From Luminiphilus syltensis NOR5-1B (lineage in GTDB: Bacteria > Pseudomonadota > Gammaproteobacteria > Pseudomonadales > Halieaceae), in assembly GCF_000158175.1 (NCBI RefSeq), contig NZ_DS999411.1, positions 2,927,674 to 2,991,673 on the forward strand: DNA of 64,000 bases, written 5' to 3'. The position numbers and the translations under genes were made by a program. A model generated the notes under the pieces. That model had not been told where the DNA came from, did not search any database, and saw nothing but the letters and a program-made list of their open reading frames with translations. Below are positions 52,831-60,462 of the stretch, one piece after another (the first letter of the stretch is position 1; each line of letters begins with the position of its first letter).

Positions 52831-52897
52831 AATCTAGCGGTCACCCCCAGAGTTGTCAACTTTTTCTGACAGATTTTTGAGTCTAAAGAAGTGGACA
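52831..52897 (-). promoter_or_regulatory. bchF promoter with tandem PpsR operator (also ppsR upstream region)
   Basis: On the reverse strand a consensus -35 TTGACA (52859-52854), a 17-bp spacer and TAGATT (52836-52831) make a good sigma-70 promoter about 70 nt before bchF. The -35 is inside a perfect TGT-N12-ACA operator at 52854-52871. A one-mismatch copy AGT-N12-ACA (52880-52897) begins 26 bp away. The region is shared with divergent ppsR (start 53018), so PpsR may also affect its own gene. Confidence 0.8.
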
Positions 52898-53017: not shown

Positions 53018-54442
53018 ATGGGAATCACCACCAATGCCATCCGTGATGAGGGAGACCCGAGCGTGCTTACTGACCTCAGCTTCGACGAGTTGACACTGCT
53101 TCTCGGAAGGGCTTTTGATTTCCGCCTTGTGATCGATGGCGAGGGGCGCATTTTTGACTCCGCGGTCACCAATAATGAAGCCTCCGATTTAAGCCCAGGC
53201 AACTGGAATAACCGGGAGTGGATCAGCACGATCGCCCCCGAGAACCGTCAGCAGGCGAAGCAGGCGCTGCAAACGGCGCACAATCAACCCGGCATACCCG
53301 TAGATCTCGACGTAATCCACATCAGCGATTCCGGCATCGAAATGCCGGCGAAATATGTGCTCTTAGGGCACGGGTCGCGCACCATCGGTTTTGCCGATGA
53401 TTTAAGGCCGCAGGCCAACCTGCGGCAGCAGCTACTGAACTCCCAACAGGCACTGGAACAGGATTACTGGACGCTTCGGCAGGTTGAGACCCGCTATCGG
53501 CAACTGCTTGAAATGACCGAGGAAGCACTGCTTATTATTGACGCCGGCAGTGGTCGAGTGGTCGAGGCGAATGCGGCCGCGAATAGACTTCTCGCTGGAG
53601 GCGCCGCCAACTCCCTGGTCGGTAGGCCATTCCCCCGCGGGCTGGCACCCGAAAGCCAGGTGGCGCTGGAGCGACTGTTCAACGATGTCCGGCAGACCGG
53701 ACGCCACGAGCCCCTGGAAATAATGCTGGCATCGGGCGGAGAACGACTAGGCCTTGAGGCAAAGGCGGTGAGCGAAGGCAATGACCTGCGTTTTCACGTC
53801 AGAATCACGCCCCAGGAAGGCGCGGCGGCTAACGACGATCTGAATGCACTCCCCGCCTGGCTCGATCGGGCGCCCGATGGCGCACTGCTGCTCGACAACG
53901 AAGGCAACATCAAGGCCGCCAACCAGGCCTTCACGCGTCTGGTCGAGGCGACCACCAGCGCCGAAATCACCGGCCGGCATGCCTCTCAATGGCTGGGGCG
54001 AACCTCGGTTGATCTCAATGTGCTGCTTAACAACTTGCGCAGCCAGGACTCAGTGCGCTTGTACAGCTCGGTATTACGGGGCACCTTTGGCGCCATGACC
54101 GATGTGGAGATCAGTGCCAGCACGATGGTCAAGGGGCCAGAGCCCGACTACCTGTTGCTGGTTCGCGACGTCAGCCGTCGCGTTGGCGCAGAACACCCTT
54201 CCAGCAGCCCCCTGCCCCGGTCGATCGAACAGATCACCCGCCGGGTGGGCCAGGTGCCACTGAAACAATTGACCAAAGAGTCAACCGGCATTATCGAGGC
54301 CCTGTGCATCGACGCTGCACTCAAGCTTACCGGCGATAATCGCGCCTCCGCCGCCGAAATACTGGGACTCAGTCGCCAGAGTCTGTACGCGAAACTGCAC
54401 CGCTATGGCGTGGGCACCAAGGAAACCAGCGAAGAAAGCTAG
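53018..54442 (+). CDS. ppsR: PpsR/CrtJ, photosynthesis repressor
   Basis: A 474-aa transcriptional regulator. A PAS-like N-domain (FDELTLLLGRAFDFRLVID), a Q-rich linker helix (about 145-165), two further PAS domains (MTEEALLIIDAGSGRVVEAN and APDGALLLDNEGNIKAANQA) and a C-terminal Fis-type helix-turn-helix (ASAAEILGLSRQSLYAKLHR). It binds TGT-N12-ACA palindromes such as those listed here. The only cysteine is C430, just before the HTH; the second redox cysteine of CrtJ/PpsR is missing. No aerR/ppaA gene precedes it. Confidence 0.95.
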   Translation: MGITTNAIRDEGDPSVLTDLSFDELTLLLGRAFDFRLVIDGEGRIFDSAVTNNEASDLSPGNWNNREWISTIAPENRQQAKQALQTAHNQPGIPVDLDVIHISDSGIEMPAKYVLLGHGSRTIGFADDLRPQANLRQQLLNSQQALEQDYWTLRQVETRYRQLLEMTEEALLIIDAGSGRVVEANAAANRLLAGGAANSLVGRPFPRGLAPESQVALERLFNDVRQTGRHEPLEIMLASGGERLGLEAKAVSEGNDLRFHVRITPQEGAAANDDLNALPAWLDRAPDGALLLDNEGNIKAANQAFTRLVEATTSAEITGRHASQWLGRTSVDLNVLLNNLRSQDSVRLYSSVLRGTFGAMTDVEISASTMVKGPEPDYLLLVRDVSRRVGAEHPSSSPLPRSIEQITRRVGQVPLKQLTKESTGIIEALCIDAALKLTGDNRASAAEILGLSRQSLYAKLHRYGVGTKETSEES

Positions 54443-54464: not shown

Positions 54465-54507
54465 TGTCTATTTATTTAGACGCTATTGTTGTTTTTATAT
54501 ATTGACA
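54465..54507 (+). promoter_or_regulatory. bchG promoter with tandem PpsR operator
   Basis: A perfect TGT-N12-ACA operator spans 54490-54507 and a one-mismatch copy TGT-N12-ACG spans 54465-54482, 25 bp earlier. A forward promoter fits as TTTAGA (54475-54480), 17-bp spacer, TATATT (54498-54503). The operators thus cover its -35 and -10. It would give bchG its own start site, separate from ppsR. Confidence 0.75.
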
Positions 54508-58011: not shown

Positions 58012-58284
58012 GTGATCCAGGATCTACTGCTTTCCGGGCGCCTTTTTGATCTCATACTGATCGGAATCGGGCTGGAGATAGTGCTGCTCGGCTGGATTGC
58101 CCGGCAATATCCGGGCACACCACGCCTCGGTGTTCTACTCCCGAATCTGCTATCCGGTGCTGCGCTGATGCTTGCGGTGCGACTGGCGGTTACCGACAGT
58201 CGCTGGGAATGGATTGCAGCGACACTCGCCGCCTCGCTAGCGTTTCACCTGATCGATCTGGTAAAACGCTACCGCGAAGAATAG
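58012..58284 (+). CDS. small membrane protein downstream of bchP
   Basis: A 90-aa protein with three predicted helices: LFDLILIGIGLEIVLLGWIA, LLPNLLSGAALMLAVRLAV and WIAATLAASLAFHLIDLV. It ends with a basic KRYREE. The start is GTG 58012, 10 nt after bchP. I do not recognise a named family. Operon position suggests a pigment- or membrane-related role, but none can be stated. It converges on acsF, with only 9 nt between the two. Confidence 0.7.
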   Translation: MIQDLLLSGRLFDLILIGIGLEIVLLGWIARQYPGTPRLGVLLPNLLSGAALMLAVRLAVTDSRWEWIAATLAASLAFHLIDLVKRYREE

Positions 58285-58293
58285 TCCGCTAAC

Positions 58294-59361
58294 CTACCAG
58301 GCTGGGGCCATGCGCGCTTCGGCAGGCAACTCGTTGGACTCAACAGGCAGAAAGTAAAGCTTGGCGAAAGTAACTCCTGTGGCCGCCATCAGCCCCCATT
58401 GCTTGAGCCTCGGCAACACACCCTTCTGCTGACGCAGCGCTTCAGTACGAAGACTGAGATCGAGCATGCGATCGAGCCCGCGGCGGAAACGGGGATCATC
58501 GGTATTGAGGGTCAATGGAAAGACCTGGCGGGTAATCGCGGTGCAGATATCAAAAACCCGGTAATCAAACTCAGTGACATCCATACCGAACGCTTCGTAC
58601 AGTTTTGGCCGCGTGTGATCCCGAACGTACATGGTTGAATAGACCGCCAGCAGGAAGAACCGGATCCACAATTTGTTGTGGCCGCGAAGCAGATACGGAT
58701 TCGCACGCATCAGTAGCGCAAACGCTTCTCCGTGCGCAAATTCATCATTGCACCACTCGTAAAACCAGCTAAATATGGGGTGGAATCGATTTTCAGGGTT
58801 GCGCTCAAGATGTCGGAAAATAGTGATGTAGCGCGCGTAACCAATTTTCTCGGAAAGATAGGTCGCGTATAAAATATACTTGGGCTTAAAGAAGGTGTAT
58901 TCCTTCTTTTTCTTGAGCTCACTCAGGTCAACGGCGACGCTCATTTGATTGAGAGCCTTGTTGATAAACCCGGCATGGCGTGACTCATCACGGGCCATGT
59001 AGCGCATCAGGCGCTCCATATCGGGATTCTCGGTGTGCTTCTGTATCTCCTGATACAACACACAGCCCGAATATTCTGCCGTGATCGAGCTCACCAACAA
59101 ATCGAGAAACTCTTCTTTGAGCTCTGGGTCGGAATCGAGCGAGGCCGGATCGAAGTCGTAGGTTTTCTTGAAGTGGGCGCGATTCTTGTCCTCAGCAAAG
59201 TCCGCCATCATGGCGTCCCATTGCGCCCGGACGGGCTCGATATCGAGCTTGTCCAGCGCTTTATAGTCGGTTTTATAGAATCGCGGCGCCAGCATACGGC
59301 TTTCCAATGCCTGCTGCGTGGATTCGTTGTGCTCAATAATTTCCGCGTCGGTTTGTGTCAT
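58294..59361 (-). CDS. acsF: AcsF, aerobic Mg-protoporphyrin monomethyl ester cyclase
   Basis: A 355-aa diiron monooxygenase forming ring E using O2. Ferritin-like ligands are readable: EYSGCVLYQEIQKH, ARDESRHAGFIN (ExxH) and NDEFAHGEAFAL (ExxH). RAQWDAMMADFAEDKNRAHF is a family N-terminal motif. It is the only cyclase in the window (no bchE), so pigment synthesis here depends on oxygen. GGGGGAG lies before ATG 59361. A PpsR operator pair sits upstream, shared with the divergent BLUF gene. Confidence 0.97.
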   Translation of the reverse strand: MTQTDAEIIEHNESTQQALESRMLAPRFYKTDYKALDKLDIEPVRAQWDAMMADFAEDKNRAHFKKTYDFDPASLDSDPELKEEFLDLLVSSITAEYSGCVLYQEIQKHTENPDMERLMRYMARDESRHAGFINKALNQMSVAVDLSELKKKKEYTFFKPKYILYATYLSEKIGYARYITIFRHLERNPENRFHPIFSWFYEWCNDEFAHGEAFALLMRANPYLLRGHNKLWIRFFLLAVYSTMYVRDHTRPKLYEAFGMDVTEFDYRVFDICTAITRQVFPLTLNTDDPRFRRGLDRMLDLSLRTEALRQQKGVLPRLKQWGLMAATGVTFAKLYFLPVESNELPAEARMAPAW

Positions 59362-59382: not shown

Positions 59383-59425
59383 TGTTCAGTCGAATTGACT
59401 ATTTTCGTGTGTAGTTTAGTTGACA
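59383..59425. promoter_or_regulatory. acsF/BLUF divergent region with tandem PpsR operator
   Basis: Perfect TGT-N12-ACA at 59408-59425, and a one-mismatch copy TGT-N12-ACT at 59383-59400, 25 bp away. The perfect site ends in TTGACA (59420-59425), a consensus -35 in the direction of the BLUF gene. The pair lies 22 nt upstream of acsF and about 100 nt upstream of the BLUF start, so PpsR could control both. Confidence 0.75.
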
Positions 59426-59525
59426 TTTTGCGCATTTTCAAGCTTAGTGTGACAGATGTCCCGTTCTTTCGGGCCTCTCACCTTGGCCGCGGTTCTAGCC
59501 GTCGCCAACCACTGCAGGAGGTAGC

Positions 59526-59975
59526 GTGTCGGAGCAAGCCAACAGCCCATGCGACACGCTGTTACAGGTCGGTTATGTGAGTACCGAGAGCGCCCCTATC
59601 GACTCGCTGGGCCTTCTAAGGCTGCTTACCCGTATCAGGGAGCGCAACAATGCACGGGGCCTGACCGGGCTATTGCTACACCGGGACGACTCGTTTTTTC
59701 AGGTATTGGAGGGGCCGCCCGATGCCGTGGAAACGACGATGCATGAGATAGAAGCCGACACACGGCATCACAACGTGAGGATCCTGTTTAAGGAAACCAT
59801 ATCTGAGCGGGAATTCGGCGATTGGCAAATGGGCTTTCTGCAGCTCGATGGCGTCGACATGAGTAAAGTAGAGGGGTTTTCGAGCTTTCTGCACAACCCT
59901 GAACAACCCCAATCGTTCCTGGAGAACCTGAGTCAGAGCAAACGGCTCGCCCTGCTCTTTCGCGAACTCAGCTGA
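59526..59975 (+). CDS. short BLUF-domain blue-light photoreceptor
   Basis: A 149-aa protein consisting of one BLUF domain plus about 35 residues. The flavin-binding set is complete compared with AppA: Y17 (AppA Y21), N42 (N45), Q59 in SFFQVLEG (Q63), W100 and M102 in FGDWQMGF (W104, M106). There is no haem/SCHIC or output domain. GTG 59526 has AGGAGG 5 nt upstream. It shares a PpsR-operator region with acsF. A light-dependent role on PpsR is plausible but unproven. Confidence 0.93.
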   Translation: MSEQANSPCDTLLQVGYVSTESAPIDSLGLLRLLTRIRERNNARGLTGLLLHRDDSFFQVLEGPPDAVETTMHEIEADTRHHNVRILFKETISEREFGDWQMGFLQLDGVDMSKVEGFSSFLHNPEQPQSFLENLSQSKRLALLFRELS

Positions 59976-60462
59976 CCGCCACTTTTCGTTTCCGCCAGAT
60001 CGGCCTGAATACACCCAGCACCACGTTGGCAGACGCCACAAACCCCAGCACCCACAAAGAGGCCTGCTCCGCTGCAACGGTGGTTGCAAGCGCACTGACC
60101 GCTAATTCGCCGCTCACCGCCTGCGCAGCCAGTTCGGCTTCCCGCTCGATGGGGCCCTGAACCGCGAGAAGCGTCCCTTCAAACATCACCACACCGGAGA
60201 CGAGCTTCAGCCACGCCCAGCCGGCGTTGTGGAAGGCGGTCGTGATGGCCATCGAGAGCAATCCGCTGACCAGGGTTACCCCGAGCGAGGGAAACAACAC
60301 CCACCGCGCGATGCCGTCCATGACATCCCGGAGCGCACGGTAAGTCTCGAGGCCCTGCTCGGGGTCGGGCAATAAGGCATTAACAACAATCAAAGAGGCC
60401 ATGGCACCCAACATGCCAATTGCCCCCATTGTGTGCAGAAACTTCATGACCTTGCGCTGCAT
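59968..60462 (-). CDS. DUF2269-like membrane protein
   Basis: A 164-aa protein with four helices; the N-terminus KVMKFLHTMGAIGMLGAMAS resembles DUF2269 proteins. It has LVSGLLSMAITTAFHNAGW as second helix and a basic C-terminus RPIWRKRKVAVS. Function unknown. It overlaps the 3' end of the BLUF gene by 8 nt, tail to tail. It may mark the edge of the photosynthesis cluster. Confidence 0.7.
   Translation of the reverse strand: MQRKVMKFLHTMGAIGMLGAMASLIVVNALLPDPEQGLETYRALRDVMDGIARWVLFPSLGVTLVSGLLSMAITTAFHNAGWAWLKLVSGVVMFEGTLLAVQGPIEREAELAAQAVSGELAVSALATTVAAEQASLWVLGFVASANVVLGVFRPIWRKRKVAVS

Follow-up and report, generated by a model that had tools for sequence, protein, structure and literature searches.

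Blue-light control of photosynthesis genes in a marine group that has no AppA has been a question in print since 2009, when Spring et al. suggested for Congregibacter litoralis KT71 that a single-domain BLUF protein modulates the repressor PpsR. The sections of that paper available to us (PMC2654016) describe a genome without appA, two BLUF genes, one of them close to ppsR, and a cluster with 15 putative PpsR sites; the proposal is repeated in the available part of a later paper (PMC3666943, 2013), and an excerpt from a third (PMC3176799, 2011) places BLUF near acsF in the photosynthesis clusters of the NOR5/OM60 group. The idea of a BLUF protein acting on PpsR is thus already published, and the sequence-only reading of the present locus, which had put it forward as a circuit simpler than AppA–PpsR, overstated its novelty. 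A full-text literature search, judged by titles and the openings of abstracts, returned no later test of BLUF acting on PpsR. Relative to the portions of the literature on this clade that we could draw on, and leaving aside the supplementary site list of PMC2654016, what appears to be new here is the operator statistics, the overlap of operator and acsF promoter, the C-terminal motif of the BLUF protein and its association with acsF in split clusters.

The physiology of the group is described in the same partial sources. In KT71 the pigments are repressed by blue light independently of the initial oxygen, nearly all pigment is lost after six transfers on malate in darkness, and on one and the same carbon source C. 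litoralis can be either stably pigmented or stably unpigmented, the latter state persisting in prolonged light (PMC2654016, in part). Chromatocurvus halotolerans and Pseudohaliea rubra were studied under light of various colours, Luminiphilus syltensis and P. rubra also respond to green light, and oxidative stress is named as an alternative cause (PMC3666943, in part). According to a passage of PMC3679898, BLUF is present in four phototrophic members, and one of two columns without pufLMC has it too. Outside the group, the available texts report that Fur, a repressor, is bound by the short BLUF protein BlsA in darkness but not under blue light (PMC5955987), that the LOV protein LdaP is an antirepressor of PpsR in the AppA-less phototroph Dinoroseobacter shibae (PMC10890935), and that blue light is sensed through BLUF in a non-phototrophic Spongiibacter (PMC8805636).

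The window analysed here, 64,000 nt of the L. syltensis genome, holds a further member of what is essentially the system of the KT71 BLUF protein (KT71_19323) and the NOR5/OM60 clusters, namely a short BLUF near ppsR and acsF with no appA. It resembles AppA of Rhodobacter sphaeroides in fold, in photocycle residues and in sequence (33–36% identity), with PpsR as the presumed target of both, whereas the SCHIC haem domain of AppA has no counterpart in it and the sequence match ends near residue 106. AppA also carries a Cys-rich tail, which the window BLUF is without. PpaA/AerR would play the same presumed role next to PpsR with a different fold and chromophore (B12-binding), and LdaP is likewise a blue-light flavin protein that acts on PpsR in an AppA-less phototroph, but of the LOV and not the BLUF type. 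BlsA of Acinetobacter is, like the window protein, a stand-alone BLUF with a C-terminal extension, and it binds its repressor in the dark; it differs in the repressor (Fur), in gene context and in its non-phototrophic host.

Features of the acsF–BLUF region and of the ppsR region, in coordinates of the window
Feature	Position	Strand	Remarks
Tandem PpsR-type operator, bchF/ppsR divergent region	52854–52897		found by matrix
ppsR, complete PpsR/CrtJ repressor gene	53018–54442	+	TIGR02040, 436.7 bits (cut-off 275.4)
Tandem PpsR-type operator between ppsR and bchG	54465–54507		found by matrix
Gene of a 90-aa protein	58012–58284	+	between bchP and acsF
acsF, O2-dependent Mg-protoporphyrin IX monomethyl ester cyclase	58294–59361	-	TIGR02029, 500 bits; divergent from BLUF
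Operator 1, acsF-proximal	59383–59400		TGT-N12-ACT, imperfect (last base off consensus); matrix score 6.4
Operator 2, BLUF-proximal	59408–59425		TGT-N12-ACA; matrix score 15.5
Predicted acsF promoter	59413–59441	-	TTGAAA-N17-TAAACT; -10 within operator 2
Best rightward candidate for a BLUF promoter (inference)	59420–59448	+	TTGACA-N17-CTTAGT, 9/12 consensus matches; -35 within operator 2, weak -10
Ribosome-binding site of the BLUF gene	59516–59521		AGGAGG
Stand-alone BLUF gene	59526–59975	+	149 aa; GTG start at 59526, stop at 59975
C-terminal segment with clade-specific motif	59928–59972	+	codons 135–149; predicted helix 137–147, low confidence
Gene of a 164-aa UPF0093-like protein	59968–60462	-	overlaps the BLUF gene by 8 nt

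The BLUF protein matches the Pfam BLUF model (PF04940) with 96.2 bits (cut-off 25), and this is the sole Pfam model over cut-off, which makes it a short single-domain BLUF. It had been credited with all residues of the flavin photocycle, and Y17, S19, N41, Q59, W100 and M102 are indeed present and are invariant in the 56 compared BLUFs of the type found beside acsF (acsF-type BLUFs). We take these to be the photocycle residues of AppA, going by their roles in AppA, and most of them lie inside the AppA alignments. In the AlphaFold model the core has block pLDDT values of 87–96, and block means fall to 52–67 in the C-terminal helix 137–147. The closest structures found by Foldseek are AppA BLUF domains, then PixD-type proteins, BlsA (6w6z) and others; these matches are uninformative on the C-terminal part, where AlphaFold confidence is low. 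On the other side, the BLUF gene stands tail to tail with the gene of a 164-aa protein that has weak UPF0093 (HemJ-like) similarity under cut-off; this gene adjoins BLUF in much of the window's genus, and no match was found beside BLUF in other genera.

That the BLUF gene is divergent from acsF and shares a tandem PpsR-type operator with it was borne out, with the two sites separated by 7 nt in the acsF–BLUF spacer and operator 1 one base off; ppsR itself lies about 5 kb away in the window. The bare pattern TGTN12ACA is not significant in the 64-kb window (13 occurrences against 9.0 expected, and at least 13 in 12 of 100 shuffles), and as it was too weak, we turned to a matrix derived from other promoters. 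This matrix combines 39 distinct sites, taken from 74 extracts of spacers adjoining ppsR (bchF/ppsR/bchG) in relatives, some genomes entering twice, and every acsF–BLUF spacer and the window itself were excluded from the training. It detected 8 sites in the window and 6 tandem pairs, including 59383/59408, the tandems standing at promoters of crtI type and crtC/crtE type and at those of bchC, bchF/ppsR, ppsR/bchG and acsF/BLUF, compared with a mean of 0.6 sites (maximum 2) and no tandem in 20 dinucleotide shuffles of the window. For the acsF–BLUF spacers of relatives, 55 in number and, coming from related genomes, not independent samples, a matrix site at the threshold used for the window was found in 54 and a tandem pair in 39, where 100 shuffles of the spacers gave means of 0.65 spacers with a site (maximum 3) and 0.01 with a tandem (maximum 1). 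As a control, 35 other BLUF genes of the family were examined over 220–256 nt of upstream sequence; a single region had a site and none a tandem. An exact-letter test on the spacers gave the site in 24/55 and the tandem in 16/55 (2.5 and 0.09 in shuffles). At the thresholds used, the tandem pair is missing in 16 of the 55; 14 short spacers, in the window's genus, mostly carry a single strong site. Control of the acsF–BLUF promoter region by PpsR is likely on this sequence evidence.

A scan of contigs with one peptide pattern yielded 51 loci, which are not a census. An acsF–BLUF pair with tandem sites occurs in L173, L185, L186, L189 and L194, five assemblies that are labelled Chromatiales, Chromatiaceae or Gammaproteobacteria and may lie outside the family. 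The pair of L185 has a complete PpsR gene (393 bits) as its immediate neighbour. Shortened PpsR-like frames, both under cut-off, stand next to the pair in L173 (601–1422, 273 aa, 156 bits) and in L186 (1239–1571, 110 aa, 85 bits); they are either decaying second copies or short regulators. L193 has, in place of acsF, a haem oxygenase gene divergent from the BLUF gene, which carries a tandem operator, and a phytochrome gene near; on the other side of BLUF are genes for an O-methyltransferase and a polyprenyl synthase. Neither acsF nor an operator was found at the most distant locus, L198 (labelled Comamonadaceae).

Our leading reading, which we put forward tentatively and give slightly less than an even chance, is that the BLUF protein may be the dedicated blue-light sensor of the photosynthesis cluster and a light-gated partner of PpsR. 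PpsR would bind the tandem operator and repress acsF and probably BLUF too, as the conserved sites suggest; in darkness or weak light the C-terminal helix of BLUF would dock on PpsR and weaken the repression, and in blue light PpsR would be released from BLUF and the pigment genes would be shut off. With its antagonist's gene under its own repression, PpsR would be part of a double-negative loop. Operators that are kept in the BLUF/acsF spacer and are nearly absent upstream of other BLUF genes argue for this reading, as do the PpsR gene beside the pair in L185 and the operator-bearing BLUF without acsF in L193. It also draws on the O2-independent repression of pigments by blue light in C. litoralis and on the precedent of BlsA and Fur, as far as the cited sections describe them. 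The imperfect operator 1, the spacers that have no tandem and the weak BLUF promoter of the window tell against it. Moreover, the loss of pigment by KT71 in darkness, as given in the available part of PMC2654016, speaks against a simple dark antirepressor, which predicts otherwise.

The distribution of the gene was followed in 140 genomes of the family, a sample with many incomplete assemblies. Fifty-eight of them have acsF, and in 55 of these a divergent BLUF gene adjoins it; the remaining three are cut short by the end of a contig on the side facing BLUF, about 0.24 kb past the acsF match (G072), within a piece of BLUF (G077) or inside acsF (G083). A genome without detected acsF, G089, has at a contig end a BLUF gene that was taken as acsF-type because it groups with the BLUFs of this type in the tree and shares their neighbour on the far side, and that was excluded from the 55 spacers. 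The 99 BLUF matches in the family thus comprise 56 of acsF type, 35 others used for comparison and 8 left out (G100:C96, G097:C182, G028, the second G027 gene and four fragments, two in G096 and one each in G059 and G077). Both species of the light-colour tests, Chromatocurvus halotolerans and Pseudohaliea rubra, have the acsF–BLUF pair. Genomes with PpsR over cut-off carry an acsF-type BLUF in 54 of 59 cases and those without in 2 of 81. Within the 140 genomes an acsF-type BLUF occurs only where there are photosynthesis-cluster genes; the 75 genomes without detected cluster genes have none, and other BLUF types are found in 10 of them. Of the 54 genomes with both genes, 28 have BLUF and ppsR on one contig and at most 20 kb apart. 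In split clusters (e.g. G112, G096), BLUF accompanies acsF instead of ppsR, without a bch gene nearby; in G112, ppsR is on a contig of 172 kb and BLUF in the middle of one of 67 kb. The pairing of acsF and BLUF is real and conserved, and the constant neighbour of BLUF is acsF, not ppsR, which counts against an action of BLUF on PpsR.

This constancy gives room to an alternative that we consider unlikely, in which BLUF would act on AcsF or on a tetrapyrrole step of its neighbours and lower bacteriochlorophyll synthesis in blue light through the enzyme itself, with PpsR setting expression only. It would explain why the two genes stay together wherever contigs allow them to be seen, also in split clusters, and it is in line with five genomes that have reaction-centre genes without detected acsF and that all are without an acsF-type BLUF, as well as with the weakly HemJ-like gene that is often convergent on the other side of BLUF in the genus. 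A common divergent promoter alone could, however, keep acsF and BLUF together, and in L193 the BLUF gene and its operators stand beside a haem oxygenase gene instead. Control in trans of an enzyme of the AcsF or tetrapyrrole kind is not known to us for any BLUF protein, which also weighs against this alternative.

To return to BLUF as a partner of PpsR, its best candidate output surface is the C-terminal segment, whose motif is confined to the acsF-type clade. In an unrooted tree with long branches elsewhere, the 35 other BLUFs of the family are separated (support 100/98) from the acsF-type BLUFs, which make up a single clade, and across this clade the C-terminal consensus LSRGKRLALMFR is kept. 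In its strict form the motif is present in 46/56 acsF-type BLUFs versus 0/35 others; the comparison BLUFs are mixed, so that weak C-terminal conservation among them is expected, and the telling point is the absence of the motif. Eighteen other ppsR genomes were also compared; 14 of them have a BLUF gene, and the motif is absent from all 31 BLUF frames at the 30 loci covered, out of 37 matches listed. We infer that the C-terminal segment of acsF-type BLUFs may bind PpsR, and a clade with its own C-terminal motif, restricted in the family to genomes with cluster genes, is in favour of the leading reading. The acsF-type BLUF of G111 (L012) has a change of frame near its end and so lacks the conserved motif, by assembly error or true loss.

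Short BLUF proteins elsewhere have diverse partners. The output of the present one could lie outside pigment control (e.g. a PixD-like partner, motility or c-di-GMP), with PpsR control only timing the sensor with the photosystem; we think this improbable. The motif-free BLUFs in 14 of the 18 other ppsR genomes favour this alternative, since they indicate that a ppsR genome needs no BLUF of acsF type, while the lack of acsF-type BLUFs in all 75 genomes without cluster genes, ten of which do have BLUFs of other types, speaks against it.

A light input to PpsR through BLUF gains weight from the regulators of the L. syltensis genome (99.8% complete), in which neither AppA nor AerR/PpaA was detected. 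The sequence-only reading had noted that the protein has no SCHIC/haem part and that the cluster has no ppaA/aerR gene, and had named an AppA/PpaA homologue elsewhere in the genome, if it accounted for all light and redox control, as evidence against its proposal. The protein ends at 149 aa and has the only BLUF domain of the genome. The SCHIC model PF21966 was over cut-off in none of the 140 family genomes and weak in three, with no match in the L. syltensis genome; it is a weak test for AppA, because the BLUF–SCHIC fusions L224, L226 and L227 reach 19.9–27.8 bits against a cut-off of 28.6, and the absence of AppA is for this reason read from the single BLUF match. Among these BLUF-B12/SCHIC fusions, L226 (763–1872, minus strand), an AppA-like gene of another ppsR genome, has one PpsR-type site upstream (score 14.8), and no such site was found upstream of L224 and L227.

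With the B12-binding profile, three matches were found in the L. syltensis genome and none was read as AerR, which extends the earlier observation from the cluster to the genome. The first is a MetH-sized frame of 1230 aa, the second a mutase-sized frame of 714 aa, which is also the only match of the AerR profile in the genome, and the weak third (L004) is a GuaB-like protein by reading of its sequence. As a control, the frame beside ppsR matched PF02310 in 7/7 loci tested (of 20, in other ppsR genomes), 6 of them over cut-off. In the family at large the AerR profile matches at least 127 of the 140 genomes (E ≤ 1e-4); these were not taken as AerR, as the matches listed cover the B12-binding part only and many of the frames have about 720 aa. 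The best of those listed are frames of about 240 aa, and one of these, L142, lies beside MTTB and is the corrinoid protein of a methyltransferase. Our statement on AerR accordingly covers the L. syltensis genome. This genome does not encode the canonical LOV core NCRFLQ, as judged by an exact pattern search. Three genes of photolyase/cryptochrome type (L229, L230, L231) lie elsewhere in it and are other possible blue-light sensors.

The position of the operators relative to the promoters bears on which gene PpsR would control. In the acsF direction, the pattern CTTG..-N17/18-TA...T places a -10 box within the BLUF-proximal operator in 52 of the 55 spacers; this loose pattern matched 53, one of them at another position. 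When a sigma-70 consensus was scanned over all positions, the acsF offset was best in two spacer groups and tied best in a third, G137 and G138 being counted in the group long(g1). In the BLUF direction, TATACT or TATAAT stands right after operator 2 in 10 of 16 spacers from other genera or assemblies and is absent in 6; combined with a weak hexamer of -35 type that lies 17 nt upstream, this would place operator 2 between both boxes. A fit of the operator geometry to the acsF promoter is better supported than one to the BLUF promoter, and L193, where a BLUF gene has the tandem operator without acsF, supports operator control of BLUF itself. That the operators serve acsF alone, with BLUF a bystander and the blue-light repression of pigments due to a cryptochrome-like sensor or to photo-oxidative stress, would suit the acsF -10 box within operator 2, the three photolyase/cryptochrome-type proteins and the repression by green light in two species (PMC3666943, in part), but we hold it to be quite unlikely, as a clade-specific C-terminus and an invariant place are unexpected for a bystander and a BLUF-direction -10 box (TATACT) follows operator 2 in several other genera.

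The green-light response, the named alternative of oxidative stress and the photolyase/cryptochrome-type proteins also reduce our confidence in BLUF as a light-gated partner of PpsR. A more specific form of this leading reading, for which we see little chance, is a minimal PpsR antirepressor made of a BLUF domain and a short C-terminal docking helix, which, with its own gene repressed by PpsR, would act as a pigmentation switch with memory that is reset by blue light. Such a double-negative memory loop could account for the two stable phenotypes of C. litoralis, as the available text of PMC2654016 describes them. If a BLUF–PpsR contact is real, the acsF-type BLUF would be, as far as we know, the smallest light input to PpsR, and the conserved common operator and the clade-specific motif make what was a general speculation directly testable. 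On the far side of acsF, the gene between bchP and acsF encodes a protein of 90 aa that has no Pfam or NCBIfam match and is found in the same place in many relatives.
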